DNA from: Sulfuricurvum sp.
GTDB lineage: Bacteria; Campylobacterota; Campylobacteria; Campylobacterales; Sulfurimonadaceae
DNA: 64,000 bases
Direction of reading: 5' to 3'
NCBI GenBank assembly: GCA_028710885.1
Contig: JAQTTG010000006.1
Location: forward strand, 1-64,000
Part shown: one piece after another, positions 6,565-29,937 of the stretch
Numbering within the stretch: the first letter of the stretch is position 1
Layout: each line of letters begins with the position of its first letter
Program-made: the position numbers and the translations under genes
The notes under the pieces: generated by a model
What the model saw: the letters and a program-made list of their open reading frames with translations, nothing else
What the model was told of the DNA's origin: nothing
Databases searched by the model: none

Positions 6565-6580
6565 TACACTTCAAAATTTT

Positions 6581-6624: not shown

Positions 6625-6664
6625 TATTGTAAAACCACCTCTTTTATATCTCTATATTTCCTTG

Positions 6665-6729
6665 TGGCATTTTGTGCAAGCATTGTATCACTTTGTGTAT
6701 TGAATAGCCTCTTTAACTCCTTTTATTTG
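6665..6729 (+). promoter_or_regulatory. Tandem 21-bp-phased direct repeat plus promoter, copy 2
   Basis: TGGCATTTTGTGC (6665-6677) and TATCACTTTGTGT (6686-6698) are degenerate versions of the repeat at 922 and 10480, again with starts 21 bp apart. A TTTATTTG box at 6722-6729 (one mismatch to TAnnTTTG) lies 23 bp after the second repeat. The beta-helix gene starts about 105 bp downstream at 6836. Weaker than the 922 and 10480 copies, but spacing is conserved. Confidence 0.55.
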
Positions 6730-6835
6730 TAATGTTCGTTAGTTGAGGTATTTATATCAGTAATTTCAGTGAATATAGTCGTCATAACAGGAGTGGAAGT
6801 ATTAGAATGTGAATCTTAATCAATCAATATACAAC

Positions 6836-11741: not shown

Positions 11742-12239
11742 ATGAACTTTGAAAAATTAAAAATAAAAGCAATGTTATTTGTAATTGTTGGTATGGCAGG
11801 ACTACAAGCACAAGTAGTGGTTCCATCAACAGGAGGTAATGCGATTGGCAGTGGTGGTTTCGTTAATTATTCAGTAGGACAGGTTGTCTATACTAGCAAC
11901 ATTGGAACAAACGGTTCTGTGGTACCAGGAGTACAACAACCTTTTGAAATTTCCACAGTTACAGGACTTAATGATGTTACTGGAAGAAGCATGATTTGTA
12001 CGGCTTATCCAAACCCTGCAACCAATGTTGTTCAGTTAAAGGTTGATGATTCTATTAATATCACGATCCAGTCAATGCGTTATCAGCTTATTGATATGCA
12101 AGGGAAACTCATAAAAACCCAAAAAATTGATATGTATTTAACGGAAATTGTTATGAGCAGTTTGATTCCAGCTACTTATTTTCTGAGGATTACACTAGGA
12201 AACAAAGAGATAAAAGCATTTAAAATTACTAAAAATTAA
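11742..12239 (+). CDS. Small T9SS type A sorting-domain protein
   Basis: The 165-residue product has a signal peptide (to LQAQ, about residue 24), a short Gly/Ser-rich module (GGNAIGSGGFVNYSVGQVVY, then SVVPGVQQPFEIS), and a full T9SS type A tail from residue 85 (AYPNPATNVVQLKV, MQGKLIKTQ, ATYFLRI, KAFKITKN). The part before the tail is only about 50 residues, so this is little more than a secreted adaptor. It lies 76 bp after the DUF1566 gene and 14 bp before the next gene. The tail is homologous at DNA level to the end of the GH5 gene at 26747. Function beyond surface delivery is unknown. Confidence 0.85.
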   Translation: MNFEKLKIKAMLFVIVGMAGLQAQVVVPSTGGNAIGSGGFVNYSVGQVVYTSNIGTNGSVVPGVQQPFEISTVTGLNDVTGRSMICTAYPNPATNVVQLKVDDSINITIQSMRYQLIDMQGKLIKTQKIDMYLTEIVMSSLIPATYFLRITLGNKEIKAFKITKN

Positions 12240-12253
12240 GGAGATATTCATCC

Positions 12254-12787
12254 ATGAAAAAAACCGTCACATTTATCGTAATTCTATTTTTAGTTTCAAA
12301 CATTTTTCGGTTGCAGCAGACAAGTGCTCAAACACCACAAAAATTAAGCTATCAGGCAATTGTTCGTAACAGTAGTAATGCTCTTGTCACCAATAAACAG
12401 GTTGGAATGCAACTAAGTATCCTTCAAGGTTCGATAACCGGCACAGTAGTTTACTCCGAAATCCAAACTCCAACTACCAATGCCTTTGGTTTAGTAACTA
12501 TAGAAATTGGTGGTGTGGGTTTTAGTACTATACCCTGGGCAAATTCTACCTATTTTATTAAAACAGAAACTGATCCAACCGGAGGAACTAACTACAGTAT
12601 TACAGGAATCAGCCAATTATTGGCCGTGCCGTATGCTTTCCAGTCAAAAACCACTGAGGGAGTTGCAAGCATGACACAATTTCAAATAGATGCTTTACCA
12701 CCAGTAGCAGGTTTGATAGTTTATAATAGCACCTCAAAAGAGCTCATTTTTCATGATGGCACTATCTGGAAAAGCATTCTGAACTAA
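12254..12787 (+). CDS. Secreted 'SYQAxxR' N-terminal-domain protein
   Basis: The 177-residue product has a signal peptide (cleavage likely after TSAQ, about residue 26) and then a single domain beginning TPQKLSYQAIVRNSSNALV. Conserved signatures are SILQGS, VYSEIQTPTTNAFGLV, GFSTIPW, DPTGGTNYSITG, LLAVPYAFQSK and SMTQFQIDAL. The same domain forms the N-terminus of the DUF1566 protein (10639) and of the SGNH esterase (28261). Here nothing follows it, so it may be a truncated member or a free-standing binding or assembly module. It ends with KSILN and has no T9SS tail, so surface export may depend on the neighbouring tail protein; that is speculation. Confidence 0.8.
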   Translation: MKKTVTFIVILFLVSNIFRLQQTSAQTPQKLSYQAIVRNSSNALVTNKQVGMQLSILQGSITGTVVYSEIQTPTTNAFGLVTIEIGGVGFSTIPWANSTYFIKTETDPTGGTNYSITGISQLLAVPYAFQSKTTEGVASMTQFQIDALPPVAGLIVYNSTSKELIFHDGTIWKSILN

Positions 12788-12932
12788 TTAAAAATCTCAG
12801 CGAATATAAGTTGGAAAAATAGTATCTAAAATTACATATTGTTAATTTTTAAAATAGGTCTGTTTATTAAATACTTATTAAACTATTTTATTGAGCATTA
12901 TCGAAATATCTTACTTTAAAACAATCTAATGT

Positions 12933-15900
12933 ATGACAAAAAATCAAATTATTCACGTATTCTGTAATAGGAAGAAGTTGAATGTATTTTTATTTAAAAA
13001 TCGGATCCTCAGTATGCTGATTTTTGCAGGAATGGTGGCTTTATCCACCAACTCATATTCGCAGGTAAATAAACCTCAACGAGCCTCACAAAATTCAAAT
13101 CAAGCTGGAATTAAGAAAATTTCTGGAAAGGTTACTGACACAAATGGTGAGCCTATTTTGGGCGCAACAGTTTTGATAAAAGGCTTCTCAACCGGCACTA
13201 TCACAAACGAAGCGGGCGTTTTTTCACTTACACTTCCGGCAAGTGCCAAAACAGTTTCATTCTCCTATATTGGATACAAATCAAAAGAAATAGAAATAGG
13301 AAATGCTGCAACTTATAACATAGTATTGGAAGATGCCAGTATTGGGATGAGTGAGGTTGTTGTGGTTGGTTATGGAACGCAAAAGAAGTCGACACTTACA
13401 GGTGCAGTTTCTACTGTCAAATCTGACGCAATTTTGCGTACCCCGGTAGGAAATGTTACCAACGCTTTAACCGGACGGATGCCAGGAGTTGTTACAGCTC
13501 AACGAAGTGGAAAACCCGGAGCAGACCAGGCTGATATATTTATTCGTGGGCGGGCTACAACAGGAGACGCATCTCCATTAATTATCGTAGATGGTGCTGA
13601 AAGACCGTCGTTTGGTGATATTGACCCCAATGAAATTGAAAGTATTTCGGTGCTGAAAGATGCCTCACAAACAGCTCTTTTTGGTATAAAGGGTGGTAAT
13701 GGTGTTATTGTAATTACTACCAAATCAGGTAAAGAAGGTAAACCAAAAATCACATATACCGGAAATTTTGCGATGCAAACTTATACTACTATTCCACAAA
13801 CACTAGACGCATTCACCAGCGCAAGTCTTTTGAATGAGGCCAATGCTAATGTTGGGAAGTCACCCGCATTTACGGATATTGAACTGCAAAAGTATAAAGA
13901 TCATTCTGACCCCGTTTTGTATCCTGATTTTAATTGGCGGACGTTTATGGTTCGAAAATACTTCCCTCAGACACAACATAATATCAATATTTCAGGAGGA
14001 ACAAAAGTTGCCAAATATTTTGTTTCAGTGGGATATTTGTTTGAAGATGGTTATCTTAAAAAGTTCGATAATCCCTATAGTGGTTATAGTACAACTCCAA
14101 ATTATAACCGATATAATTTCAGGTCTAATTTAGATTTAAATTTAAGTAAAGATCTTACTGTTTCTATCAAACTTGGTGGAAGAACGGAAGCAAGATATGT
14201 ACCTGCCGCAGGCGGTTTTTATACAAACGGACAATATGCGGACGCACAAATTGAATATTTGCTCTCCCGTATCAATAACATTCCCGCCTGGGCATTTTCG
14301 CCTTACTTACCTGACGGTCGTTTTATGGAAAACCCTTCAGCAGGTGTAAACCTGACCAACCCATTAGGATGGTTGTTAACACAGGGCTATTCGATGAAAC
14401 AAACCAATACAATCGAAAGCACTATAGCGTTGAACTATAAATTGGATAAACTTTTTAAAGGATTATCTTTTCGGACACAATATGCCTATGATGGAACATA
14501 CTACGCAAATAGATTACAATCAGGTTCATTTGTTTCATATAACGTCAATAAAACTACAGGTGAAATAGCAGCCGGAACTGCCTCCATGGCTACCAGTGAT
14601 TCTCCATTGGGACCCATACAGGCAAGTTATGATGGGATTATCAACTTTGACCTACAAGCAAGCTTAAATTATGCCCGTGAATTTGGAAAACATTCGGTTA
14701 CAGGATTGGCCTTATTCCAACGTCAGGCAAAAATGCTGGCAGGTGCACAACCGGCTTATGCGTCCCAGGGTTTTGTCGGCAGAGCAACATACAATTATGA
14801 TGGAAAATATTTCGCGGAGTTAAACGGGGCATACAATGGTTCAGAAAATTTTGCTTCAGGTGTTCGTTACGGTTTTTTTCCGGCTATTTCGGCTGGTTGG
14901 AATATTAGTAATGAGTCGTTTATGAAATCGCTTACCTGGCTAAACCTACTAAAAGTAAGAGGCTCTTATGGGAAAATTGGTTTTGATAGAATTGGTGGTG
15001 CCCGTTTTCTTTATTTGGATGAATATACCCAGAATACGTCGCAAGTTCAGTTTGGGTTACCTACCTCCATACAGTTTGGCTATCCAACCTCTGCCCAAAC
15101 CTATACAGCGGTTGTCCATTCAAGAATCGGCAATCCGAACATTACATGGGAAACATCCCTGAAACGTAATATTGGGGTTGAAAGTAGTTTTTTTGATAAT
15201 TTCTTATCTGTAAATTTTGATTTGTTTGATGAAAATCGTAGTGGTATCCTGCTTAACCGAGCATCCGGTTTAACTACTTATGGTGAAGCTTATCCGATGT
15301 TAAATCTTGGAGCAGTGTATAATCATGGATATGAAGTGGAAGTAAAAATTCAGAGTAAACCAGGCAAGGATTTTAGATATAGCGTCACTACGCAAGTCAG
15401 TTTTGCACGAAATAAAGTTATAAGTCTCGATGAACCTCAAGGGAAACCTGACTATCAGAAAGCAGCAGGCTATAGTATTGGCCAATTCCGTGGATATATA
15501 ACAGATGGGTTTTATAAATCGCAGGAGGATATCGATAACTCAACTCCAAATAAACTAGGAAAACCCATACCCGGTGATTTGAAATTTGTCGATTTTAATA
15601 ATGATGGAGTTATTGATTCAAATGATAAAGTGCCAATAGGTTATTCAATTGTTCCGGAATACAATGGAAGCATAGAAGCCATGGTCGGTTGGAAAGGATT
15701 AACCTTATCTGTTATGTTACAAGGTGTTACAAATGTTAGTTCAGATATTCAGTATGACCAAAGACCGTTGAATGCTAATCAGATGTACACCAATATGTTA
15801 GGTCGTTGGACTCCTGCAACAGCAGCAACTGCAACCTGGCCAGCCTTACAACCTGCCGTTGGTGGAAATTTTATGAGTTACCTGACCAACGACTTTTTGT

Positions 15901-16142
15901 TGACTGATGCCAGTTATTTAAAAATCAGAAATTTACAGCTTTCTTATCAACTACCTGTCAAGCTTGTGCATAAGCTAGGAGTTAGTAATATTAGGTTCAA
16001 CTTATCAGGTCAAAACCTATATACCTGGACAAAAGTATTGTATATTGATCCTGAAAATATTGGACGTAGTGCCCCACAAGGTGGCACTGGTGTAATTCCA
16101 AGTACCAGGGTTTACAACTTAGGTCTTAATATTGAATTTTAA
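12933..16142 (+). CDS. SusC/RagA-type TonB-dependent outer-membrane transporter (pair 1)
   Basis: The 1069-residue product is of normal SusC length. A hydrophobic signal at about residues 25-44 follows a basic extension. A carboxypeptidase-regulatory-like domain (KISGKVTDTNGEPILGATV) spans 63-132. The EVVVVGYGTQKK box (141-152) precedes the plug domain (TGRMPGV, FIRGRAT, PLIIVDGAERP, ASQTALFGIKGGNGVI), and a 22-strand barrel ends in a C-terminal Phe. It imports oligosaccharides across the outer membrane using TonB energy, in complex with the SusD 21 bp downstream. Its position as first gene of the same-strand series suggests it opens the PUL operon, though no clear -7 box was seen upstream. 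Confidence 0.95.
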   Translation: MTKNQIIHVFCNRKKLNVFLFKNRILSMLIFAGMVALSTNSYSQVNKPQRASQNSNQAGIKKISGKVTDTNGEPILGATVLIKGFSTGTITNEAGVFSLTLPASAKTVSFSYIGYKSKEIEIGNAATYNIVLEDASIGMSEVVVVGYGTQKKSTLTGAVSTVKSDAILRTPVGNVTNALTGRMPGVVTAQRSGKPGADQADIFIRGRATTGDASPLIIVDGAERPSFGDIDPNEIESISVLKDASQTALFGIKGGNGVIVITTKSGKEGKPKITYTGNFAMQTYTTIPQTLDAFTSASLLNEANANVGKSPAFTDIELQKYKDHSDPVLYPDFNWRTFMVRKYFPQTQHNINISGGTKVAKYFVSVGYLFEDGYLKKFDNPYSGYSTTPNYNRYNFRSNLDLNLSKDLTVSIKLGGRTEARYVPAAGGFYTNGQYADAQIEYLLSRINNIPAWAFSPYLPDGRFMENPSAGVNLTNPLGWLLTQGYSMKQTNTIESTIALNYKLDKLFKGLSFRTQYAYDGTYYANRLQSGSFVSYNVNKTTGEIAAGTASMATSDSPLGPIQASYDGIINFDLQASLNYAREFGKHSVTGLALFQRQAKMLAGAQPAYASQGFVGRATYNYDGKYFAELNGAYNGSENFASGVRYGFFPAISAGWNISNESFMKSLTWLNLLKVRGSYGKIGFDRIGGARFLYLDEYTQNTSQVQFGLPTSIQFGYPTSAQTYTAVVHSRIGNPNITWETSLKRNIGVESSFFDNFLSVNFDLFDENRSGILLNRASGLTTYGEAYPMLNLGAVYNHGYEVEVKIQSKPGKDFRYSVTTQVSFARNKVISLDEPQGKPDYQKAAGYSIGQFRGYITDGFYKSQEDIDNSTPNKLGKPIPGDLKFVDFNNDGVIDSNDKVPIGYSIVPEYNGSIEAMVGWKGLTLSVMLQGVTNVSSDIQYDQRPLNANQMYTNMLGRWTPATAATATWPALQPAVGGNFMSYLTNDFLLTDASYLKIRNLQLSYQLPVKLVHKLGVSNIRFNLSGQNLYTWTKVLYIDPENIGRSAPQGGTGVIPSTRVYNLGLNIEF

Positions 16143-16163
16143 ATTACTGTAAAAATTACTATT

Positions 16164-17822
16164 ATGAAAAAAATAAATTTATTTTCAATTATATGTTTTG
16201 TCACCCTGTTAGTCGGCTGCAACGATAAATTTCTTGATGTTGCACCTGATGTAGCTATTGATGAAGCAAAGGTTTTCTCAAATCCTGTATTGGCTGCACA
16301 GTATGCCGATAATGCGTATAGATATCGTCCCGACGATTACTTACGTTGGAACAGTATAGCGGGAATGTCGAATGTTACAGATGAGTCAGTAGGAACTGAT
16401 ATTACTTCTACCTTAATATATACATTACAAAAAGGGATGTGGCATGACCACTCACTATTGACAGCAACTAATTCGGACAGATACTTTTTAAATGACATAG
16501 CAGGAGTTTGGGGAATGAGTTACTCCGGAATCCATGTTATAAATAAAATGCTTTCCAAAATTGACCTGGTCCCTTGGACAACTCAAGATCCGGGCAGAAT
16601 TAAAGGAGAAATGTATTTTCTACGAGCATCCATGTATTTTGAGTTGATAAAAAGATTTGGAGGCGTGGTTATTATGGATAAAGATTATGCAGCCAATGAC
16701 GATATTGATTTTCCAAGAAGTACGTATGAAGAATGTGTAAGTTTTATATTAAATGATATTGAACAAGCCATCTTGTTATTGCCTATCAATTACGACCAGG
16801 GAAATTATGGGCGGGCTACCAGTGGTGCTGCCAGAGCACTGAAATCACGTTTATTGCTCTATGCTGCCAGCCCGCTTAATAATTCATCTAACGATTTGAC
16901 GAAATGGGCTGCTGCAGCCAGTGCTGCCCAAGATGTAATTGATATGAACAAGTATAAGTTGCATAAAAATTACGGAGAAATTCTAAATATCCCAATGAGT
17001 GATACTTGTGAATATATTTTAATAAAAGTCAGAGGTCCTATAGGTACACCTTATCCAAGTTTATCGGTTATGTCGCCAGGCTCGGGTGGAAGTAATGGTG
17101 AGTTTAATCCCACTCAAAACCATGTAGATTTATATGAAATGAGTAACGGCCTTCCAATTTCCGATCCAGCTTCAGGCTACACACCAACAGATCCTTATGC
17201 AAATCGCGACCCACGTTTTTATGCCAATATTTTGTACAATGGCGCAACGTGGCAAGGTCGTAAAATGGAAATGTGGGATGGAGGAAAAGATTATCGGTCG
17301 ATAGGTACCAGCTATACTCAAACCCGTTATTATTGTAAAAAGATGTGGCCGGTTGAATTTGATAGTCAATTAAATAAAAAAGCTATTATAAATTTCATAT
17401 TCTTTCGATATGGTGAAATTCTATTGAATTTTGCGGAGGCCCAAAACGAAGCTGTTGGGCCAGACGCAAGAGTTTATAATGCAATAAATCAAATTCGAAA
17501 ACGTGCCGGAATGCCTGACTTGCCCGTGGGATTAACACAGGAAAAAATGAGAGATCGCATTCGGAACGAAAGAGCAATAGAATTGGCTTTTGAGGACCAT
17601 AGATTCTATGATGTGATGCGTTGGAAAAAAGGGAAAGAGATTATTGCCAATCCTGTTTATGGAATGAATGTAGTTAAAAATACAAATGGGACATTTACTT
17701 ATACTCCTATAAAACTCAATGATTATTATCAACGTGTTTTCGAAGATTTTATGCATCTGTACCCTATTCCAAGGACGGAGATTCAAAAGAGTAAAAAACT
17801 GATACAAAACCCGGGTTGGTAA
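16164..17822 (+). CDS. SusD/RagB-type surface glycan-binding lipoprotein (pair 1)
   Basis: The 552-residue product has a lipoprotein signal (FVTLLVGC, Cys 19) and the SusD fold: an N-terminal helical part with GEMYFLRASMYFELIKRFGGV, the ALKSRLLLYAASPLNN repeat region, and the C-terminal RNERAIELAFEDHRFYDVMRWKKG signature. It caps the SusC encoded 21 bp upstream and captures oligosaccharides. The four SusC/D genes follow each other with 18-28 bp gaps and are surely one transcript. Confidence 0.95.
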   Translation: MKKINLFSIICFVTLLVGCNDKFLDVAPDVAIDEAKVFSNPVLAAQYADNAYRYRPDDYLRWNSIAGMSNVTDESVGTDITSTLIYTLQKGMWHDHSLLTATNSDRYFLNDIAGVWGMSYSGIHVINKMLSKIDLVPWTTQDPGRIKGEMYFLRASMYFELIKRFGGVVIMDKDYAANDDIDFPRSTYEECVSFILNDIEQAILLLPINYDQGNYGRATSGAARALKSRLLLYAASPLNNSSNDLTKWAAAASAAQDVIDMNKYKLHKNYGEILNIPMSDTCEYILIKVRGPIGTPYPSLSVMSPGSGGSNGEFNPTQNHVDLYEMSNGLPISDPASGYTPTDPYANRDPRFYANILYNGATWQGRKMEMWDGGKDYRSIGTSYTQTRYYCKKMWPVEFDSQLNKKAIINFIFFRYGEILLNFAEAQNEAVGPDARVYNAINQIRKRAGMPDLPVGLTQEKMRDRIRNERAIELAFEDHRFYDVMRWKKGKEIIANPVYGMNVVKNTNGTFTYTPIKLNDYYQRVFEDFMHLYPIPRTEIQKSKKLIQNPGW

Positions 17823-17849
17823 GAATAAACTTAAATTAAATCACAAAAT

Positions 17850-20800
17850 ATGAAATATATATATATATCCATCTTTGCTCTATTTTCTTTGCTGGTTAAT
17901 GTATTGCAAGCTCAAGAGCGGGTTACAAGTTTAATTACTGGTAAAGTAACCGACACGAATAATCACCCTGTTTCTGGCATGACCATCGAAGTTCAGGAAA
18001 TAGGTACCGGAACAAAAACGGATGCTACTGGTAAATTTGCAATTTCTGTCGCAAAAGGAGATGTCCTGGTGTTTACTAAAGAAGGTTATTTGACCTCATT
18101 TCAGGACGTTATAGTTAGTAAGAATGAGTTAGTGATACATGTAAAACCATCTATTGCGGAAGCCGGGGAAACTGATAACGTGCACATACCTTTTGGTATA
18201 GTAAAAAAACGTGAAATTAATGGTGCAGTTTCAACAATTCAATCTTCCGGTCTATCCCATACACCTTCAAGTTCTTTATTCAATGCGTTGCCAGGACAGA
18301 CCACCGGATTTAATATTTGGCAATCAGGAACATTGCCAGGTCGCGATGATGCAACTTTTGTAATTCGCAATAGAGCCTCTTTTGCAGGAAGTAATGTTCC
18401 GCTTGTATTGGTCGATGGTGTAGCCCGTGATTTTTCGGATATGGATTTGAATGAAATTGAATCGGTTACTGTATTAAAAGATGCAGCCTCACTGGCATGG
18501 TATGGCAATAGGGGAGCAAATGGTGCTCTTTTGGTAACCACAAAACGAGGAAATGCCGAAAAAACGACTTTTTCCTATGATGTACAGTTAGGTTCACAAA
18601 TGCCTACAGCTTTGACAAAACCTGTCGATTCGTATAATTTTGGGAGGCTCTATAATCAGGCATTACAAAACGATGGTTCCCAACCTTTCTATACGCCATC
18701 TCAATTAGACAACTATAAATCAGGAACAGATTTGTATGGATATCCTAACAACAATTTCGTAAAAGATTTCATTAATAATAATGCTTTGGTGCAACGGCAT
18801 GTATTGACAGCTTCGGGTGGCTCTAAAGCTATTCGTTATTTTACTACGCTGAGTTTTTTTGATCAGAATGGGCTTTTTAAAGGTGCACAAACTCCTTTGT
18901 ATAATTCTAACGTTGGTTATCAGCGCTATAATCTGAGAACAAATCTTGATATGCAGGTTACTCCGATGTTAAATGTACAGTTAGACATGGGTGGTAGAGT
19001 CGAAGACCGTAGTCAGCCTGGTGGTGGAAGTGATGCATTTCTTAATTCTGTATTTACAACTCCATCAAATGCTTATGCATTGTTAAATGAGGATGGTTCT
19101 TATGGAGGAACCAGTTCGTTTCAAAACAATCCCTTAGCTCAGTTAAAAAGTAAAGGATACAGTGATGAAGTTACGCGTATATTGATGGGAACTTTGAATG
19201 CAACCCATAAACTTGACTTTATTGCTAAAGGCTTGTCCGCAAATCTTTTTTATACTTTTGATATTCAAGGAGTTTTTACCAGTGGAAGGAGTCAAAATTA
19301 CGAAGTTTATCAACGAAGTGTAGCCGGTTCATTAACCCAATTTGGAACTGCGACTCCACTTGTTTATTTAACATCTGCTTTTTCAAACAATATACGGGCA
19401 AATGAATTATGGACCGGATTTGATTATAAGAATAGTTTTGGAAAACATACGGTAAGTGCTACCGTTCGCTATCAACAGGCCGTAGTATATGCCGCCACAC
19501 AGTTTGAAAACAAACGTCAAGGTGTCTCTGCACGTGGTTCGTATTCATATGATAACCGATATTATCTGGATTTGGTTGCCAGTTACACAGGAGCCGACAA
19601 TTATATGCCAGGCAAGCAATTTGGGTATTTCCCGGCAATGGCATTGGGCTGGGTCATTTCTGAAGAAAAATTTATGAAAAATATAAAATTTATTGATTAC
19701 CTGAAGTTGCGCGGTTCTTATGGAATGGCTGGTAACAATTCAACAGGTGAATCGAGTAAATTTCCATATGCCTATTTATATACTCCTACAACTGGTGGAT
19801 ATACATTTGGATCATCATATACATTTAATCCGGGAGGGGCTGAAGCTACTTATCCTAATCCAAATATCACCTGGGAAAAAGCGTATAAAACAGATATTGG
19901 ATTTGATCTTAAATTATTAAAAAATAGTCTTTCAATATCCGGTACCTATTTTAACGAGGACAGGAAGGATATTCTTACAAACCCGCTTTATCCATCCATT
20001 GTTGGACTGAATTCCTATAACATTAATGATGGACAAACACGACTTCGTGGTTTTGAAGGAACGATAGATTATACAAAGAAAATCGGTGATTTTACGCTTT
20101 ATGTAGGTGCCAACTTTACTTCGGCAAAGAATATCATCCTACGAATTAACGAATCGGCAGGTTTAACCGATTATCAGTTACAAAAGGGACACAATATTGG
20201 GTCGATAAATGGTTATGATAGTCGGTTGATGCTCCTATCTGATGGTATTTTCCAATCGCAAGCAGAAATTGATGCAAGTCCGGTGCAGCGGTTTTCGGGC
20301 AAAGTTGTACCCGGCGATATTAAGTACAGGGATATTAATGGAGACAAGGTAATTGACAACATGGATAGGGTAATGACTGATTATAATGACACTCCTGATG
20401 CTTATTACGGATTCAAATTTGGAGGCATGTACAAAGGCTTCGATTTTTCAATCCTAATGCAAGGAGTAAATGGTCGAACCATCCAGATTCGTTCGTTGGT
20501 GTTGGCAGGTTCTAATAACACTGGGTATATAAATCAGTTTAGTGAAGATGCCTGGACTTCTTCAAATCCAACTGCCCCCTATCCAAGACTTGGTATTTCC
20601 GATAGAGGAAATAATACCGCCAATTCTGATTTCTGGTTAAGATCCGGTGATTATCTACGGTTAAAGTCTATTGAACTTGGCTATACAATCCCTTCTGTGT
20701 TGACTGACAAGGTCCATATTCGGTCATTAAGGTTTTACCTGAATGGTTTTAACTTGTATAATTTCAATAAAACAGGAATGGATATAGACCCGGAACTGAA

Positions 20801-20870: not shown

Positions 20871-20889
20871 TAATCTTAAAAAAACGAAT

Positions 20890-22518
20890 ATGAAAAAGTT
20901 CTTTTATCTTATATTGATATCAATTTTATTGGGTGTAACTTCATGCAATTATATGAAGTATGACTTTTATGACGGACCAGTTACAGAAGCTCAATTTTGG
21001 AAGTTGAATAATTCTGCCCGTGGCGAGCTGAATCAGGCATATTCTTTTCTTCAGCAGGGATATAACAGTTATGACGGTGCCATGCTGGCTGCCGGTTGTG
21101 ATGAGGCTGTTAATTCCAATTTAAATTCAACCGTGAATATATTTAATAATGGCACGTGGAGTTCACTTCGCACGATGAATGATTTATATGCCTATTATTA
21201 CAGAGGAATCAGGCAGGTCAATGTGTTTCTGACCCATGCGAATACGGCCAACATTATCCCCGCAACTGATATTCCAAGGTTGCGTGGAGAAGCATTCTTT
21301 TTGAGAGCTTACTTTCATTTTGAATTGTTGAAGCGATATGGAGGTGTGATTATTGCTAAAAGAGTCTATAATCCCAATGACACGATTGACCTGCCAAGAA
21401 ATACATTTTCTGAAACTGTTGGGCAGATAGTGATGGATTGTGATTCAGCCTTAGCAATACCTACTTTACCGCTTGCTATCGCCAACTCAGCTTCATCTGA
21501 TTTTGGTCGTGCTACCAAAGCGGCTGCTATGGCCTTGAAATCACGCACATTATTATATGGGGCAAGCCCATTGAATAATCCGAGTAATGATCTTACACTT
21601 TGGCAAAAGGCGGCTGATGCAGCTAAAATGCTTATCGATAGTAAAGCACACAGCTTGTTAGCTAATTATGCTGATGTTTTTAATTATAGCGTGGCGGCTT
21701 TTAATTCAGAAGTAATTTTTGCCACTTCAGCCGATAATCGAAATGATATAGAAACGAACAATGCCCCGATTAGTTTTGCCGGTGCTTTGGGGAGAACCAA
21801 TCCAACCCAGGAATTGGTTGATGCCTACGAAATGAAAAATGGCCTGTTAATAAGTGATCCATTATCCGGATATAGTGCATCAAATCCCTACTTAAACAGG
21901 GACCCAAGGCTTACACTTTCTATTTTTTATAATGGCTCGAAGTATAAATCAACTACAATTGATACCTATGTTGATGGTAAAGATTCCAAAGAAATAAACA
22001 TAAACGGAACGAAGACAGGTTATTATATGGCAAAATTTTTAAGTAGTTCTGCAACATGGAATCAGGCAACAAATACATTAGTTCGCCGGCCATGGGTGAT
22101 ATTCAGGTATGCCGAGATTTTGCTGAACTATGCTGAAGCACAGAATGAAGCAGTTGGTCCTGATCAAAGCGTGTATGACGCGGTTAATCAAATCCGGAAA
22201 CGGGCACGGAGTGGAATCGCAACCGACTTGCCGGCAAATCTGACAAAAGATGAGATGCGTGAGCGTATCCGAAATGAGCGAAGGGTAGAACTGGCTTTTG
22301 AAGAACATCGATTCTACGATGTACGTCGTTGGAAAATTGGTGAACAAACTTTTGGAAAACCAGTTACAGGAATGAAAATTGTGAATTCAGGAACAAATTT
22401 CACTTACGAACCATATACGGTTGAGACAAGAGTTTTCGAGGCAAAAGATTACCGCTTTCCAATCCCTCAATCTGAAATAGACAAGACAACTAAATTAGTT
22501 CAAAATTCAGGGTGGTAA
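20890..22518 (+). CDS. SusD/RagB-type surface glycan-binding lipoprotein (pair 2)
   Basis: The 542-residue product has a lipoprotein signal (LLGVTSC, Cys about 19). SusD signatures are GEAFFLRAYFHFELLKRYGGV, ALKSRTLLYGASPLNN, RYAEILLNYAEAQNE and RNERRVELAFEEHRFYDVRR. It partners the transporter upstream. Its similarity to the first SusD is moderate, so the two pairs are old paralogues and not a recent duplication. Confidence 0.95.
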   Translation: MKKFFYLILISILLGVTSCNYMKYDFYDGPVTEAQFWKLNNSARGELNQAYSFLQQGYNSYDGAMLAAGCDEAVNSNLNSTVNIFNNGTWSSLRTMNDLYAYYYRGIRQVNVFLTHANTANIIPATDIPRLRGEAFFLRAYFHFELLKRYGGVIIAKRVYNPNDTIDLPRNTFSETVGQIVMDCDSALAIPTLPLAIANSASSDFGRATKAAAMALKSRTLLYGASPLNNPSNDLTLWQKAADAAKMLIDSKAHSLLANYADVFNYSVAAFNSEVIFATSADNRNDIETNNAPISFAGALGRTNPTQELVDAYEMKNGLLISDPLSGYSASNPYLNRDPRLTLSIFYNGSKYKSTTIDTYVDGKDSKEININGTKTGYYMAKFLSSSATWNQATNTLVRRPWVIFRYAEILLNYAEAQNEAVGPDQSVYDAVNQIRKRARSGIATDLPANLTKDEMRERIRNERRVELAFEEHRFYDVRRWKIGEQTFGKPVTGMKIVNSGTNFTYEPYTVETRVFEAKDYRFPIPQSEIDKTTKLVQNSGW

Positions 22519-22655
22519 AATCTTTTTTTTAAAATTTGATAATCGAATTAATACTTATAATTTTGATAAGAAACGAGCATAAATACTGATTTTTACCAAA
22601 TGGTATGAAAATCTGTCATGCGAGATCCATGTTACAACTTAAAAAATATTTACAA

Positions 22656-24044
22656 ATGAAAAAAACACTAATAATATTAATATTATCGATTGGCCTAATA
22701 GCTTGTGTGGATAATAGATTTGAGGATTTCAACTATACGGCAGGTTATTTCCCATATCAATATTCGGTATGTACATTTAATTTAAATGACAGTACCAACG
22801 GAAATAGTTATAAGTTCCAGATTCCAGCTATAATGGGTGGAGTTTACAGAAATACCAATGATAGGGTATTCGATATTGAAATAGCAACTGATCTTTGTAC
22901 CAGGGCATTGTTTGCATCAACAATGGATACCATCCATTTGATGCCTTCAACGTATTATACGTTGGGCTCATCTGATAAATTGACAATTCCTGCAGGCAAA
23001 CTTAACGGAAGTATTGACTTGCAATTTACGGATGCGTTCTTTAATGATCCTCTTGCCTGTAAGTTGCATTATGTAATTCCTCTTCGCATTAAAAGTGTAA
23101 CAAGCCTGGATTCTGTTTTGAGAGGCAAATCCACTATGGATAACCCCGATCCCAGAGTTGCGAGTCAATGGTCAATATTACCAAAAGATTATGTTATGAT
23201 TGCGGTAAAATATATAAACAAATATCAAGGAAACTATTTTCACCGAGGAGCAAGTATCATAAAAGACCCAACAGATAAGGTTGTCGAAAATAACGTGTAT
23301 AATCTTAATAATCAGATTTGGAATTTGTTGCCTTTCGGACAAAATAAGGCTTATGTTAATAGTCCACGAAACAGCACGCTCTTGACGGGTAATCAAAAGC
23401 TAAATTTGGCATTCAGTACAACAGGTAGTATTACAATTACCGATTCAATTGGTTCTGTTGTAGGAACAGGAAAGTTTTTAAAAAATGGAGGGAATATAGG
23501 AAGTCAAATACGAGATTTGATTGTACTTTCCTATAAATACCCTGTACAATATACAGCACCTACGCCTGAAAACCCAATAAAAACAGTAGATGATATAGAT
23601 ACTAAAATTAATTATGTAGGGTCTTGGACGGCCAATTCAGATGCCTCTTTTTATGGTGGAACAAGACATTATTCAAACTCAGGATCCTTTACTTACACTT
23701 TTACCGGAGATGGGATTTCGCTCTATTGGAAAACAGGATCTACTTATGGTGCTTTTGATGTTTATCTTGATGATTTGTCTGTACCAGTTAAAACAGATGT
23801 TAGTACTGTAACACCTGCTACACTTTACAAACAAAAGTTATACGAAGTCACAGGATTGCCTTTTAAATCCCATACAATAAAGATTGTTGTAAAAAATGCT
23901 AAAAATACTTATTTCGATTATCTGGTATATACAATACCTCAAATTATTGTTCCAAGTGGATCCTATACTTTCGAAGCAAATGACACTTTAGTTGTAAAAG
24001 ATAAAGTATTTCCAGTGGAAACTTTAACGCCACTTGTTTATTAA
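22656..24044 (+). CDS. Surface glycan-binding lipoprotein (DUF1735-like, SGBP position)
   Basis: I chose ATG 22656 because it gives a clean lipoprotein signal (MKKTLIILILSIGLIAC); the frame is open back to 22605. The 462-residue product sits directly after SusC/SusD, the normal place for a surface glycan-binding protein. Its first part shows the ordered beta-rich character of DUF1735 proteins (Y-rich start, then SSDKLTIPAGKLNGSIDL). The last 130 residues form a jelly-roll-like module (SGSFTYTFTGDGISLYWKTG, FDVYLDD, HTIKIVVK), comparable in style to the C-terminal module of the esterase at 28261. Glycan binding is inferred; the DUF call is from pattern memory. Confidence 0.75.
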   Translation: MKKTLIILILSIGLIACVDNRFEDFNYTAGYFPYQYSVCTFNLNDSTNGNSYKFQIPAIMGGVYRNTNDRVFDIEIATDLCTRALFASTMDTIHLMPSTYYTLGSSDKLTIPAGKLNGSIDLQFTDAFFNDPLACKLHYVIPLRIKSVTSLDSVLRGKSTMDNPDPRVASQWSILPKDYVMIAVKYINKYQGNYFHRGASIIKDPTDKVVENNVYNLNNQIWNLLPFGQNKAYVNSPRNSTLLTGNQKLNLAFSTTGSITITDSIGSVVGTGKFLKNGGNIGSQIRDLIVLSYKYPVQYTAPTPENPIKTVDDIDTKINYVGSWTANSDASFYGGTRHYSNSGSFTYTFTGDGISLYWKTGSTYGAFDVYLDDLSVPVKTDVSTVTPATLYKQKLYEVTGLPFKSHTIKIVVKNAKNTYFDYLVYTIPQIIVPSGSYTFEANDTLVVKDKVFPVETLTPLVY

Positions 24045-24200
24045 ACAAGTTGTTTGGCACTTATAAGTATTTTGCAATAATTGTCAATATTTCAACCTAG
24101 GAAAATAAGCTTAGATATTACTTGATGTAAAAAAATGCTTTACATTAAAACTCAGAATCATTTTTTACAGTTCAAAAATTAAACTTTAATAAAAAAATAT

Positions 24201-25445
24201 ATGACAATGAAAAAAAATCTAATTAGCGTCATAGTAGTCACGGTTCTTATATTTGTAATTGTAAGTTGTAAATCTGAAACGCCAACACCAACGCCAACAC
24301 CAACGCCAACACCCATAGTTGTAGTGACTGGTGATAGTATATTAAAGGTATCCTCAGAAGGCATTTTTATGCGTAACAAGATACCCTATCGGGGAATTGG
24401 TGTTAATTATTTCAACGCTTTTACCCGCACAATTGACAATCAGAACGATAAATCCTATACTGACGGATTTAAATATTTGAGCGACAATAAAATTCCTTTC
24501 GTTCGGTTCTCTGCCAATGGTTTTTATCCTAAAGCTCTTCAATTGTATCAAACAAACAGAACAAGGTATTTTACCTTACTTGATGAGTTTGTGAAAACAG
24601 CTGAAAGGTATAACGTTGGATTAATCCCAGATTTGTTCTTTAATCTTACCGCAGTACCTGATCTGGTAGGAGAACACGTTAATCAATGGGGTAACCCGAA
24701 TAGCAAGACCATTGCTTTTATGCGCACCTATACCCGTGAAATGGTAAGCAGGTATAAAGATTCACCGGCTATTTGGGGTTGGGAATTTGGAAATGAATAT
24801 AATGCATTTGCGGACTATCTGGATCAGGCGATTAATAATTTGCCTAAAGTTGATACTGCTAATGGGACACCAGCTTCAAGAACACTTGAAGACGCCACTA
24901 CCACTGATACTTTTGTTTCTGCGATGAATGAGTTTGCCAAAACTGTAAGACAAAATGATCCGGACAGGGCCATCTTCAGTGGAAATGCGTTCCCTGCTCC
25001 TTATAAGTACCATGCTTACAAATTTAAAAATTGGACACAAGACTCTTCGACCGATTATACCATCTTGCTCGGATTACAGAATCCATCCGTATTTGGAACC
25101 CTGACAATCCATCCTTATCCTTATCAGGAGTTTACTCATTTCTCCGACTTTCAAGCAAGCCTTGCGCAAATGATTCAGGAGTCCATGAGATCTTCAAAGG
25201 AATTGAAGAAAGCATTGTTTGTTGGCGAATTTGGTGCACCCAAAACACTTGGGGCAACCCTTGAAGCCCAGAAATTTCATGACCTTTTGAACGCAATAAT
25301 TGATAACAAAGTTCAACTTGCAGCACTTTGGGTGTTCGATTTTTCTTCTCAGGATGCTACCGACAATGTTACTCCAACCAACAGTCGTAAATATATGTTA
25401 GATGCAATTATAAAAGCAAATGCAGATTTTAGATTGACACAGTGA
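24201..25445 (+). CDS. GH5-like clan A endo-glycosidase lipoprotein, tandem copy 1
   Basis: The 414-residue product has a lipoprotein signal (FVIVSC), a Thr-Pro repeat linker encoded by a 12-bp tandem repeat, and a (beta/alpha)8 barrel of GH5 type. The acid/base is in WGWEFGNEYN (N198-E199) and the nucleophile in VGEFGAP (E343); the TIHPYP motif on strand 6 also fits. The closest families I recall are bacterial mannanase- and cellulase-like GH5 proteins, but the subfamily cannot be set by eye. It is predicted to be surface-anchored and to cut the polymer before SusC/D import. Two paralogues follow immediately. Confidence 0.85.
   Translation: MTMKKNLISVIVVTVLIFVIVSCKSETPTPTPTPTPTPIVVVTGDSILKVSSEGIFMRNKIPYRGIGVNYFNAFTRTIDNQNDKSYTDGFKYLSDNKIPFVRFSANGFYPKALQLYQTNRTRYFTLLDEFVKTAERYNVGLIPDLFFNLTAVPDLVGEHVNQWGNPNSKTIAFMRTYTREMVSRYKDSPAIWGWEFGNEYNAFADYLDQAINNLPKVDTANGTPASRTLEDATTTDTFVSAMNEFAKTVRQNDPDRAIFSGNAFPAPYKYHAYKFKNWTQDSSTDYTILLGLQNPSVFGTLTIHPYPYQEFTHFSDFQASLAQMIQESMRSSKELKKALFVGEFGAPKTLGATLEAQKFHDLLNAIIDNKVQLAALWVFDFSSQDATDNVTPTNSRKYMLDAIIKANADFRLTQ
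24279..24314 (+). repeat. In-frame 12-bp minisatellite encoding a Thr-Pro linker
   Basis: Three consecutive 12-bp units (acgccaacacca, last base varied in the third) encode TPTP repeats between the lipobox and the catalytic barrel. Slippage would change linker length by four residues without a frameshift. The two downstream paralogues lack it. Confidence 0.8.
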
Positions 25446-25478
25446 ATTAAATATAAATGAAATTTAACAATAAATCAA

Positions 25479-26705
25479 ATGAGATTCCATAAAGACATTT
25501 CCAAATTTATAGTATGCTTCGTTCTTTTGATGATTAGTTTTAACTGTAAATCAGAAACAAAAGCAGCGACAATCATTTCTTCAACTAGTATTTCTGGCAC
25601 GTTAACAGTTTCTGCCGATGGTGTTTTCATGCGTAATGGCAAGCCCTATCGGGGAATTGGCGTTAATTATTTCAATGCTTTTACCCGGACAATAGCCAAT
25701 CAAAACGATAAATCCTATTCTGACGGATTTAAATATTTGAGCGACAATAAAATTCCTTTCGTTCGGTTCGCTACCAATGGGTTTTGGCCTAATGATCTTA
25801 AATTGTATCAAACAAACAAAACAAGGTATTTCGTACTGCTGGATGAGTTTGTGAAAACGGCTGAAAAGTATAACGTTGGATTGATACCCGATTTATTCTG
25901 GTTTATTGGCACCGTGCCCGATCTGGTAGGAGAACACATTAATCAATGGGGTAACCCGAATAGCAAGACTATTGCTTTTATGCGCACCTATACCCGTGAA
26001 ATTGTAAGCAGGTATAAAGATTCACCGGCTATTTGGGGTTGGGAATTTGGAAATGAGTATAATTCATTTGCGGACTACCTGGAGCAGTCGATTAAATACT
26101 TGCCTAAAGTTGCTCCGACAAATGGGACACCGTCTTCAAGAACACTTGAAGACGCCACTACGACTGATACTTTTGCATCTGCTATGAAAGAGTTTACCAA
26201 AACGGTACGACAATATGATCCAGATAGGCCCATTTTCAGTGGAAATGCATTCCCTGCTCCGTATAAATACCATGCTTACAAATTTAAAAATTGGATAAAA
26301 GACTCTTCAACTGATTTTACCACCTTGCTCGGATTGCAGAATCCATCCGTATTGGGAACCCTGACAATCCATCCTTATCCATATCATGAATTTACTCATT
26401 TCTCGGACTTTAAAGCAAGCCTTGCACAAATGATTCAGGAGTCCATGAGATCCTCAAAAGAATTGAAGCAAGCGTTGTTTGTTGGAGAATTTGGTGCCCC
26501 CAAAACACTTGGTGCAACCCTTGAAGTCCAGAAATTTCAGGACCTTTTGAACGCAATAATTGATAACAAAGTTCAACTTTCAGCACTTTGGGTGTTCGAT
26601 TTGTCTTCTCAGGATGCTACCGAGAATGTTACCCCAACCAATAGCCGTAAATATATGTTAGATGCAATTATAAAAGCAAATGCAGATTTTAGATTTTCAA
26701 AGTAA
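25479..26705 (+). CDS. GH5-like clan A endo-glycosidase lipoprotein, tandem copy 2
   Basis: The 408-residue product has a lipoprotein signal (ISFNC, Cys about 23) and the same barrel as its neighbours, with acid/base E193 in FGNEYN and nucleophile E337 in VGEFGAP. It lies 33 bp after copy 1. The AT-rich intergenic leaders before copies 2 and 3 are nearly the same, so duplication included the leader. A local difference, FWFIGTVPD in place of FFNLTAVPD and GFWPNDLKL in place of GFYPKALQL, falls in loops near the active site and could alter specificity. Confidence 0.85.
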   Translation: MRFHKDISKFIVCFVLLMISFNCKSETKAATIISSTSISGTLTVSADGVFMRNGKPYRGIGVNYFNAFTRTIANQNDKSYSDGFKYLSDNKIPFVRFATNGFWPNDLKLYQTNKTRYFVLLDEFVKTAEKYNVGLIPDLFWFIGTVPDLVGEHINQWGNPNSKTIAFMRTYTREIVSRYKDSPAIWGWEFGNEYNSFADYLEQSIKYLPKVAPTNGTPSSRTLEDATTTDTFASAMKEFTKTVRQYDPDRPIFSGNAFPAPYKYHAYKFKNWIKDSSTDFTTLLGLQNPSVLGTLTIHPYPYHEFTHFSDFKASLAQMIQESMRSSKELKQALFVGEFGAPKTLGATLEVQKFQDLLNAIIDNKVQLSALWVFDLSSQDATENVTPTNSRKYMLDAIIKANADFRFSK

Positions 26706-26746
26706 AAAGTGAATTAAATATAAATCAATATTAACAATAAAATCAA

Positions 26747-28246
26747 ATGAAACTCCATAAAGACATTTACAGATTTCTAGTATGTATCGTGCTTTTTATG
26801 CTAAGTTTTAACTGTAAATCAGAAACAAAAGCAGCGGCAACCATTTCTTCTACTAGCGTTGCCGGCACATTAACAGTTTCTGCCGATGGTGTTTTTATGC
26901 GTAATGGTAAGCCCTATCAGGGTATTGGTGTGAATTATTACGACGCATTTGTTAGGACAATTGCTAATACATCAAATAAAACTTACAATGCCGGATTTAA
27001 ATATTTGAGCGACAATAAAATTCCTTTTATCCGTTTCTCTGCCAATGGTTTTTACCCTAAAGCTCTTCAATTGTATCAAACAAACAGAACAACTTATTTT
27101 GCCTTACTTGATGAGTTTGTAAAATCAGCGGAATCTTATGGTATAGGATTAATCCCATCATTGTTCTTTAATCTTACTGCAGTGCCAGATTTGGTAGGAG
27201 AGCACGTTAATCAATGGGGTAATCCGAATAGCAAGACGATTGCTTTTATGCGCACCTATACCAGTGAAATGGTAAGCAGGTATAAAGATTCACCGGCCAT
27301 TTGGGGTTGGGAATTTGGAAATGAATATAATGCATTTGCGGACTACCTGGATCAGTCGATTAATTTTTTGCCTAAAGTTGATACTGCTAATGGGACACCA
27401 GCTTCGAGGACACTTGAAGACGCCACTACCACTGATACTTTTGTCTCTGCCATGAATGAGTTTGCCAAAACTGTAAAACAATATGATCCGGACAGGGCCA
27501 TCTTCAGTGGAAATGCGTTCCCTGCTCCGAATATTTACCATCGTTACGTATTTAAAAATTGGACGCAAGACTCTTCAACTGAATATACAGCCTTGCTCCG
27601 ATTACAGAATCCATCCGTATTTGGGACTCTAACAATCCATCCGTATCCTTATCATGAGTTTACTCATTTCTCCGACTTTAAAGCAAGCCTTGCGCAAATG
27701 ATTCAGGAGTCCGTGAGATCTTCAAAGGAATTGAAGAAAGCATTGTTTATTGGCGAATTTGGTGCACCCGAAACACTTGGGGCAACCGTTGCAGCCCAGA
27801 AATTTCAGGATCTTTTAAATGCAATAATTGATAACAAAGTTCAACTTGCAGCACTTTGGGTATTCGATTTTTCCTCTCAGGAAGGTACCGACAATGTTAC
27901 TCCAACCAACAGTCGTAAATATATGCTAGATGCCATTATAAAGGCCAATGCACAATTTTTGCTCTCAGCAGGGATTAACGAAACTGTAAAAAATAATACA
28001 AACTGTTCTGTTTATCCAAACCCTGCAACAGATGTAGTTCAGTTAAAAGTGGATAATTGGTCTATGCTCGACATGAAATCAATGAGTTATCAGCTTTACG
28101 ATATGCAGGGACAACTGTTGGAAACAAAAAAAATTGAATCAGAACTCACGAATATAGCAATAAGTAAATTTGCTCCTTCTATTTATTTTATGAAAGTAAT
28201 TCAAGAAAACAAAGAAGTTAAAGTGTTCAAAATTAATAAAGATTAA
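26747..28246 (+). CDS. GH5-like endo-glycosidase with lipobox and T9SS tail, tandem copy 3
   Basis: The 499-residue product repeats the GH5 barrel of the two preceding genes (acid/base E193, nucleophile E337 in IGEFGAP). It then adds about 85 residues of T9SS type A sorting domain (VYPNPATDVVQLKV, YDMQGQLLETKK, SIYFMKVIQENKEVKVFKINKD). Its N-terminus still looks like a lipoprotein signal (MLSFNCKSET). Having both a lipobox and a T9SS tail is unusual, because T9SS cargo normally carries a plain Sec signal. The added tail is homologous to the tail of the small protein at 11742, and the gene 14 bp downstream begins with the domain that follows that protein, so the tail arrived with its neighbourhood. 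Confidence 0.85.
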   Translation: MKLHKDIYRFLVCIVLFMLSFNCKSETKAAATISSTSVAGTLTVSADGVFMRNGKPYQGIGVNYYDAFVRTIANTSNKTYNAGFKYLSDNKIPFIRFSANGFYPKALQLYQTNRTTYFALLDEFVKSAESYGIGLIPSLFFNLTAVPDLVGEHVNQWGNPNSKTIAFMRTYTSEMVSRYKDSPAIWGWEFGNEYNAFADYLDQSINFLPKVDTANGTPASRTLEDATTTDTFVSAMNEFAKTVKQYDPDRAIFSGNAFPAPNIYHRYVFKNWTQDSSTEYTALLRLQNPSVFGTLTIHPYPYHEFTHFSDFKASLAQMIQESVRSSKELKKALFIGEFGAPETLGATVAAQKFQDLLNAIIDNKVQLAALWVFDFSSQEGTDNVTPTNSRKYMLDAIIKANAQFLLSAGINETVKNNTNCSVYPNPATDVVQLKVDNWSMLDMKSMSYQLYDMQGQLLETKKIESELTNIAISKFAPSIYFMKVIQENKEVKVFKINKD

Positions 28247-28260
28247 ATAGAAATTAAATT

Positions 28261-29937
28261 ATGAAAAGGTTATTTTTAATTATAGTGGCAGTTTTATTAA
28301 CTGCTAACGTGTTACTACCACAGTATTTAAGTGCTCAAATACCACAAAAGATAAGCTATCAAGCAGTAATTCGCGATAACAATAATGCACTTGTAGCCAA
28401 CATTCAAGTCGGTATGAGAATTAGCATACTGTTTGGTTCGGCCAACGGAGCAGTCATTTACAGCGAAACCCAAACACCCACTACCAATGCCAATGGTTTG
28501 GTTAATATCGAAATAGGTGGAGGTACTGGCTTTAGCACTATTAATTGGGCTACTAATGCTTATTTCATTAAAACTGAAACTGACCCAGTTGGTGGTACAA
28601 ATTATATTCGGACGGAAACCACCCAATTGTTAAGCGTTCCTTATGCTTTGCACGCGAAAAAGATAGAACAAATGTCGAGTTTGACGCAGGTGCAAATTGA
28701 TGCATTAACGCCTGTTCCGGGTTTAATGGTTTACAATATTACAACTCAACAACCAAATTTTTACAATGGTACAGAATGGAGAGGTGTTGTTGCAGGAAAT
28801 GCAACAGGTGCAAATAAAAGTTATCCTAACGCAGTAGGTCTTCTTCCTAACAATTACTTAACTGAAGGTAATCTTGATAGGCTTTTTACGGTTTTTAACA
28901 AAGCCCTAAATGGTGGAAATGTGGTAATTGGAGGACTTGGTGGTTCTATCACTGAAGGAACTGCATCGACAAGTGTTGATAAACGTTATATTAACATAGT
29001 ATATGTGTGGTGGAAAAATACTTTCCCAAAGGCAAATATTACATTGATTAATGCAGGAATTGGATCTACTGCATCTGATTATGGTGCAATGCGTGTAAAT
29101 CGCGATCTACTTTCTAAAAATCCTGACTTTGTTGTAGTAGATTATGCTGTTAACGATGCAACATCTGAACCTGAGTATAAATTATCTTTTGAAGGTGTGG
29201 TGAGGCAGATACTAAAAGCTCCACAACATCCTGCTGTCATGTTGCTTTTTATGACAACAAATGCCGGAGTGAACTCTCAGGATTTTAAGATTCCTGTCGG
29301 AATTAAATATGAATTACCAATGGTTAATTACCATGATGCAGTCTGGCCTGAAGTACAAGCTGGCAGACTCATTTGGTCGACAATTGGTAACGACTACATA
29401 CATCCTAATGATGTTGGGCATGCCTTGACTGCAGAAATGATTTGCCTTGCATTGGATAAAGCCTATCAGAAATATAACTCAGCGAACGTACCTGTAATAA
29501 ACTCGACACTTCCTGCCCCAATTTTTTCGAATTGGTATGAATTTACCTCTCTCTACGACGGTGCAAGTCTCGTACCGGCAACTAATACCGGTTGGACTTA
29601 TGATGGAAGTGTTGCATCGAGGGCTGGTTATAGGAGTTCCACTCCTGGGAGTGTACTTACATTTCAACTTAGTGGTAAAGTAATTTATTTTTCGTGTTGG
29701 AAAACAAATGGAAATGCAGGCAAAGTCAACGTTACCGTTGATGGAGTGAATCCAGTCGTTGTTGATTCTTGGTTTGATCAAACAACCTTTTCGTACAGGT
29801 ATATGCTCAAAATCGCCAATAATTTAAGCTCTGGAAACCATATTGTCCGAATTGAACTTTTAGCGGATAAAAATTCTTTAAGCACAGGAAATGAATTTAA
29901 GGTGCTTTGCGTAGGATCAGCAGGAGTTGGATTATAA
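28261..29937 (+). CDS. SGNH-family carbohydrate esterase with 'SYQAxxR' N-terminal domain
   Basis: The 558-residue product has a signal peptide (to LSAQ, about 29), the 'SYQAxxR' domain shared with the genes at 10639 and 12254 (30-175), an SGNH hydrolase domain (about 200-405) and a C-terminal jelly-roll-like module (430-558). The catalytic set is visible: Ser229 in GGSITEG, Gly in NAGIGS, Asn298 in YAVND, and Asp378/His381 in NDYIHPNDVGH. It probably removes acetyl or similar esters from polysaccharide. It starts 14 bp after a T9SS-tailed GH5 enzyme and is likely co-expressed with it. Ester specificity is unknown. Confidence 0.85.
   Translation: MKRLFLIIVAVLLTANVLLPQYLSAQIPQKISYQAVIRDNNNALVANIQVGMRISILFGSANGAVIYSETQTPTTNANGLVNIEIGGGTGFSTINWATNAYFIKTETDPVGGTNYIRTETTQLLSVPYALHAKKIEQMSSLTQVQIDALTPVPGLMVYNITTQQPNFYNGTEWRGVVAGNATGANKSYPNAVGLLPNNYLTEGNLDRLFTVFNKALNGGNVVIGGLGGSITEGTASTSVDKRYINIVYVWWKNTFPKANITLINAGIGSTASDYGAMRVNRDLLSKNPDFVVVDYAVNDATSEPEYKLSFEGVVRQILKAPQHPAVMLLFMTTNAGVNSQDFKIPVGIKYELPMVNYHDAVWPEVQAGRLIWSTIGNDYIHPNDVGHALTAEMICLALDKAYQKYNSANVPVINSTLPAPIFSNWYEFTSLYDGASLVPATNTGWTYDGSVASRAGYRSSTPGSVLTFQLSGKVIYFSCWKTNGNAGKVNVTVDGVNPVVVDSWFDQTTFSYRYMLKIANNLSSGNHIVRIELLADKNSLSTGNEFKVLCVGSAGVGL

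Follow-up and report, generated by a model that had tools for sequence, protein, structure and literature searches.

Among the described systems close to the genes considered here are the MAT fibres of Bdellovibrio bacteriovorus, whose N-terminal domain is reported to be surface proximal and structurally unlike any PDB entry and is proposed to bind a predator surface element still to be identified (PMC10769870). Another is the type IX secretion system (T9SS), for which mCherry with a signal peptide and no tail has been used as an export control in Flavobacterium johnsoniae (PMC10994853). We analyzed a stretch of 64,000 nucleotides (here, the window) from contig JAQTTG010000006.1 of GenBank assembly GCA_028710885.1, assigned to Sulfuricurvum sp., in which a gene ending in a T9SS tail is followed at two places by a gene with a domain called SYQA here. 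Gene order across genomes strongly supports a conserved gene pair of Bacteroidota, of which these two junctions are copies. The pair is widespread and apparently new to the literature as far as searched, with no description found in the open-licence literature, and the peculiarity of the window is a rare swap of an enzyme for the head of the first gene.

An earlier note on this DNA had placed the two junctions at 12239/12254 and 28246/28261, each as a T9SS tail, a 14-bp gap and a SYQA gene, and these coordinates, gaps and domains were confirmed with Pfam and TIGR04183 (Table 1). The upstream gene of copy 1 matches Por_Secre_tail (1.3e-9) and reaches 36.8 bits with TIGR04183 (cutoff, 23), as well as 98.7 and 90.5 bits with hidden Markov models (HMMs) of the head and the tail, both trained without this gene. 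Its head, claimed by no Pfam family, carries the motif YSVGQVVY and is named SVGQ here. The arrangement that the note had described for copy 2 also holds, with a glycoside hydrolase family 5 (GH5) enzyme preceding the tail (Cellulase, 1.7e-12; Por_Secre_tail, 9.3e-12; TIGR04183, 36.9 bits against the same cutoff; tail HMM, 97.0 bits, within the SYQA-linked range) and an SGNH esterase following the SYQA domain (Lipase_GDSL_2, 6.3e-11, at the gene end; CE2_N, 0.0011, under cutoff). Both downstream genes match NF053851 Bdello_MAT_N under the family cutoff (9.4e-7 in copy 1 and 4.9e-8 in copy 2). The 14 bp run in both cases from the stop of the tail gene to the ATG of the SYQA gene.

The two tails are homologous at the DNA level, as the note had claimed, and the homology extends well past them. 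It begins at about 11990/27993 and continues, essentially ungapped and with an overall identity of ~65%, through the tail, the gap and ~400 bp of the SYQA gene, that is, the whole SYQA domain. Identity is mostly 57 to 79% per 60-bp segment, dipping to 47% in the signal peptide, and the DNA comparison found no similarity upstream of the tail. The tail proteins are 57% identical and form sister branches in the tail tree (Shimodaira-Hasegawa-like approximate likelihood ratio test, 85); the SYQA-domain tree leaves the branching of the three window copies without resolution. There were no meaningful terminal or flanking repeats around either junction. Judged by their sequences, the two copies are old paralogues of one gene pair. 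They have the same 14-bp gap because of this shared ancestry; among relatives, the gap ranges from about -4 to >150 bp and is mostly 4 to 15 bp.

Table 1. Features of the two junctions, neighbouring genes in the window, and four-helix-bundle-like genes at loci of relatives.
Feature	Position	Strand	Description
Copy 1 upstream gene	11742..12239	+	Signal peptide, ~65-aa SVGQ head, T9SS type A tail; 165 aa
Copy 1 T9SS tail	12003..12239	+	SYQA-linked subtype
Copy 1 intergenic gap	12240..12253	+	14 bp, with GGAGA (Shine-Dalgarno-like)
Copy 1 downstream gene	12254..12787	+	Signal peptide, SYQA domain, short C-terminal motif only; 177 aa
Copy 2 upstream gene	26747..28246	+	GH5 enzyme instead of SVGQ head, fused to T9SS tail; 499 aa
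Copy 2 T9SS tail	28010..28246	+	
Copy 2 intergenic gap	28247..28260	+	14 bp
Copy 2 downstream gene	28261..29937	+	Signal peptide, SYQA domain, SGNH/GDSL esterase, CE2_N-like segment; 558 aa
Third SYQA gene	10639..11665	+	Lcl_C tip (4.4e-8, just below cutoff); signal peptide frameshifted
GH5 paralogue 1	24201..25445	+	Without T9SS tail; Cellulase 4.2e-12; lipoprotein-like signal IVSC (by eye)
GH5 paralogue 2	25479..26705	+	Without T9SS tail; Cellulase 2.2e-11
Four-helix-bundle-like genes	L026:4714-4914, L036:2884-3228, L093:4633-4977, L048:4613-4978, L091:2248-2643		Assigned by eye

A scan of ~85,000 species genomes for the SYQA domain gave 79 loci, from Bacteroidales, Flavobacteriales, Chitinophagales and others, and at most of them the gene directly upstream encodes a protein of ~160 amino acids (aa) that combines an SVGQ head with a T9SS tail whose last residues are KTFKIIKN. 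Whole-genome searches of 20 of the locus genomes placed an SVGQ-tail gene within 300 bp of 33 of 41 high-scoring SYQA genes. A separate sample of 296 Bacteroidota genomes, overlapping with those 20 in two genomes (G249 and G256), was drawn regardless of the SYQA domain, and 64 carry it. Among the 42 SYQA genes read in this sample, 36 directly follow a T9SS-tailed gene and 41 have one nearby, compared to about 1 of 42 expected directly behind a tail by chance, a figure that takes T9SS tails as at most ~3% of genes (9 to 139 matches per genome, one gene per kb assumed). The gene directly ahead is an SVGQ gene in 24 cases, a gene with a tail of the SYQA-linked model and another or diverged head in 5, and a small protein of a second style in 7 (four by Pfam, with Por_Secre_tail values of 3e-12 to 5e-9, and three judged by near-identical sequence); the SVGQ gene lies two or three genes upstream in 3, directly downstream in 2, and is missing in 1. 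Second-style partners, mostly found ahead of S74 fibre genes, have a similar-looking small head and a differently styled T9SS tail. In the named loci, 71 of 94 SYQA genes are directly behind a T9SS-tailed gene and 82 of 94 have a partner nearby. The relationship also holds in reverse, as 28 of the 30 best SVGQ-tail matches in the 296 genomes are directly upstream of a SYQA match, with one more two genes upstream and one directly behind a SYQA gene. A survey of this type was the test that the earlier note had named as able to refute its proposal, and the modules adjoin far above chance. Some genomes, for example at loci L127 and L134, have the SVGQ gene downstream of the SYQA gene; the pair persists in this inverted order, and therefore the tail/start junction is not the conserved thing. 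The gene sprA, finally, was present in 64 of 64 SYQA genomes versus 227 of 296 sample-wide (hypergeometric P = 4.8e-9, too optimistic a value given that genomes are treated as independent and are related).

Two other features of these loci were observed. Several genomes have a small four-helix-bundle-like gene, of the 23S rRNA intervening-sequence type as judged by eye, just upstream of the SYQA gene and usually between it and the SVGQ gene (Table 1). A diversity-generating retroelement was considered for these loci and rejected, since a scan for the YxDD reverse transcriptase motif flagged no gene in them. One SVGQ-tail partner (L121:1753-2745, 331 aa) has a long acidic proline-rich insert separating head from tail, possibly a spacer.

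SYQA proteins consist of a Sec signal, the SYQA domain and a C-terminal part that varies between fibres, lectin-like tips and enzymes. They lack a T9SS tail, and the 25 Pfam families found most often in 80 full-length SYQA proteins do not include Por_Secre_tail. The most common tips in this set were Lcl_C (31 proteins) and Fib_succ_major (19), followed by collagen repeats (10) and S74 chaperones (6), with phage-fibre, YadA-head and other ends as single cases, and the SGNH esterase of the window is the only Lipase_GDSL_2 among the 80. Each of the 62 SYQA domains tested has a match, at the level of distant homology, to NF053851 (best E value, 3.8e-14). The window copies stay at 28.8 and 32.9 bits, under the MAT family cutoff of 60, and carry a short end (12254-12787) and an SGNH esterase (28261-29937) in place of a trimeric fibre with an adhesive tip. 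The domain is predicted to be a small beta-sandwich, with a predicted local distance difference test score of >90 over the block of residues 31 to 110. Foldseek gave no match for it at an E value of ≤0.001; the best hit of the fold search was a GH2-type glycosidase domain (VIA Z of 7.4), and the matches were too weak to name a structural relative.

The tails that accompany SYQA genes can be told from others. With the SYQA-linked tail HMM, linked SVGQ tails mostly scored 72 to 127 bits versus 13 to 53 for unlinked tails without the head in the same loci, and the enzyme-free form with the SVGQ head is by far the commonest (97 of 108 linked tails). The whole GH5 protein of copy 2 (26747-28246), searched against 395 Bacteroidota genomes, matched only the tails of small proteins (158 to 179 aa), at nine places, seven of them already known as SYQA partners. 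This search and the HMM score indicate that the GH5 gene carries a tail belonging to the SYQA pair. The earlier note had pointed to reuse of the junction with different enzymes, and this was found beyond the window too, in Winogradskyella sp. KYW1333, where a GH64 glucanase (1.7e-61) and a phosphatase-like protein (so called by eye from an N-terminal RHA motif, with no Pfam match) each bear a SYQA-linked tail and are followed by a SYQA gene. Despite their unrelated heads, these two genes are 97 to 100% identical in DNA over ~280 bp of linker and tail, and identity drops to ~51 to 63% inside the SYQA domain, so the copied block excludes it. This pattern points to recent homologous recombination at the tail. 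For copy 2, the most likely origin of the head swap is a recombination event within an old duplicate of the pair.

The contig that holds the window measures 143 kb within a 2.64-Mb assembly, and it appears to be mis-binned Bacteroidota DNA inside an assembly of another phylum. It carries every one of the assembly's seven T9SS tails, the SYQA domain was not found in 248 other genomes of the assembly's phylum, and a SprA model that was positive in 228 of the 296 Bacteroidota genomes had no match in the assembly. Pieces of the contig resemble each other in tetranucleotide profile more than they resemble most other contigs of the assembly. We treat the contig as Bacteroidota DNA because of this profile and of the distribution of SYQA, T9SS and sprA. 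Its SYQA-linked tails fall among Bacteroidales sequences in the tail tree. The contig also holds SusC/D-like genes beside T9SS cargo.

Several neighbours of the junctions deserve mention. The third SYQA gene has no tail gene directly upstream, and in its signal peptide (10639-10680) nine consecutive T shift the frame into a stop, with the remainder open in the neighbouring frame; phase variation, a sequencing error and a recent pseudogene are all candidates for this frameshift. Just upstream of the SYQA cluster, three tandem genes (2611-10144) have near-identical signal peptides and T9SS tails, with Beta_helix matches in two. Three tandem GH5 paralogues occupy 24201-28246, only the third with a T9SS tail, and their signals, IVSC (lipoprotein-like) in the first and SFNC in the other two, are odd for T9SS cargo. 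A polysaccharide utilisation locus follows at 29967-52332, with two GH31 genes and GH3, GH67, GH88, heparinase II/III-like and MGH1-like genes, a set that suggests glucuronoxylan as the substrate. As copy 2 sits amid these GH31, GH3, GH67, GH88 and heparinase-like genes, a surface GH5/esterase pair acting on acetylated glucuronoxylan is plausible.

We lean towards a reading in which the T9SS-tailed protein is a carrier or a surface dock for the SYQA protein, and hold it to be slightly on the probable side, because the T9SS signal is on one partner, the other has a tip without that signal, and both co-occur. The product of the first gene, with its Sec signal, SVGQ-type head and T9SS tail, would be exported to the surface by the T9SS, as expected from the tail recognized by HMM. 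It would either carry the SYQA protein out or wait for it at the surface, and the tip of the SYQA protein would thereby be displayed outside the cell. Copy 2 kept the tail and the SYQA domain, but a GH5 enzyme took the place of the head and an SGNH esterase that of the tip; with this architecture, two polysaccharide-acting enzymes from one operon might be displayed within a xylan-type locus. A more general version, which we offer tentatively and regard as falling short of an even chance, would make SYQA/MAT-N a docking domain of general use, with the small T9SS-sorted SVGQ protein as its receptor in Bacteroidota. The T9SS could thus display fibres and enzymes lacking its signal, and swaps of head and tip could turn an adhesin scaffold into a two-enzyme surface complex.

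Several observations weigh against the carrier or dock. The earlier note had held that the two proteins function as a pair, and the genomic pairing agrees with this, but when a pair whose two genes naturally share one frame was modelled through the intervening stop with AlphaFold2 (24 paired rows), the predicted template modelling score was 0.42, with low confidence in the head and no confident contact. Distances of head, tail and SYQA domain all inter-correlate (0.67 to 0.76), and the partial correlations with SYQA, 0.39 for the head and 0.31 for the tail, do not separate head from tail. The GH5, GH64 and phosphatase-like versions lack the SVGQ head. Were the head the dock, these enzyme-headed proteins would not be expected to work unless the tail took part before its removal, and cleavage is the normal fate of T9SS tails. 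The GH5 signal of copy 2 looks lipoprotein-like, which is unusual in T9SS cargo. Nine of the 94 SYQA genes in the named loci have no neighbouring partner, and two loci (L151 and L152, in G258) are tandem arrays of five to six SYQA-type genes with S74 fibres and no adjoining T9SS-tailed partner. Adjacency, moreover, could reflect co-regulation only.

This last idea is the most serious rival, although we think it rather unlikely. The two genes would form a co-regulated operon for separate surface proteins that serve one niche function, such as adhesion or polysaccharide attack, without contact, and the SYQA protein would reach the surface by another route. The fused-pair model, in which no contact is predicted, agrees with it, and the products of many operons do not interact. 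Bdellovibrio is not known to have a T9SS. Its MAT fibres nevertheless reach the surface (surface location from PMC10769870). On the other hand, a near 1:1 reciprocal pairing across the phylum, inverted order included, is tighter than co-regulation usually produces, and the sampled SYQA genes occur only in genomes with sprA. The small T9SS-tailed protein could also be a chaperone, cap or processing partner for the folding or release of the SYQA protein instead of an anchor. Dedicated chaperones are often needed by phage fibres, and such a role would agree with a small protein encoded upstream at a tight spacing; a T9SS tail, however, implies a destination outside the cell, and replacement of the head by an enzyme leaves no chaperone domain, which makes this very improbable in our view.

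The remaining alternatives concern the enzyme-headed copies. The earlier note had proposed a mobile junction cassette, made of tail, gap and SYQA start, that equips neighbouring genes with secretion and assembly modules. Sharing of the junction by GH5, GH64 and phosphatase-like genes, with almost identical linkers and tails in Winogradskyella, would fit such an element, but recent copying was seen there only, and in the linker and tail only, the window copies are old and without meaningful repeats, the gene order can be inverted and most linked tails bear the SVGQ head and no enzyme. We give the cassette hardly any credence. For copy 2 alone, and compatibly with a functional pair elsewhere, an accident might have occurred in which tandem duplication of GH5 extended as far as an SVGQ-gene tail, leaving a useless tail on a lipoprotein-type GH5 and ending the function of the pair. 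That only the last of the three GH5 copies has a tail, and that their signal peptides look lipoprotein-like by eye, would fit. Both reading frames are nevertheless open, the tail still scores 97 bits after long divergence and the similar Winogradskyella swaps also retain intact tails, and we judge the accident improbable.

If the T9SS-tailed protein is indeed a carrier or dock, the pair would help to explain a large and poorly annotated set of Bacteroidota surface proteins. As the conserved neighbour of a MAT-N-related domain, this protein provides a concrete candidate for the type of receptor bound by the MAT N-terminal domain, in a simple two-gene system. The pair also raises the question of whether the T9SS displays signal-less proteins via a tagged partner, and copy 2 suggests a natural route to cell-surface enzyme pairs.

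Among known systems, the Fib_succ_major and Lcl_C proteins of Bacteroidota overlap with the pair in that these domains are the commonest SYQA tips, but the names denote the tip only, and the open-licence literature gave no description of their shared N-terminal SYQA domain and T9SS-tailed neighbour. The products of the first gene resemble T9SS type A cargo (TIGR04183, PF18962) in their Sec signal and bona fide C-terminal sorting domain; the SYQA-linked tail, in contrast, is a distinct subtype tied to the adjoining SYQA gene, and most cargo has no such partner. Type B substrates of F. johnsoniae and their PorP/SprF-like shuttle genes (PMC12618676) likewise place a T9SS-tailed protein beside a dedicated partner needed for its fate. 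Here, however, the tail is of type A, and the partner is modelled as a soluble-looking beta-sandwich with a fibre or an enzyme, unlike an outer-membrane barrel. The MAT fibres of B. bacteriovorus (PMC10769870; NF053851) differ in that the SYQA domains fall under the NF053851 cutoff, that the available part of the MAT paper reports no T9SS-tailed neighbour and that the SYQA-SGNH protein of the window bears an enzyme and not a fibre tip. They are similar in that different shafts and tips (S74, lectin-like and other types in relatives) can be exchanged behind a conserved N-terminal domain, and in their expected display at the cell surface.

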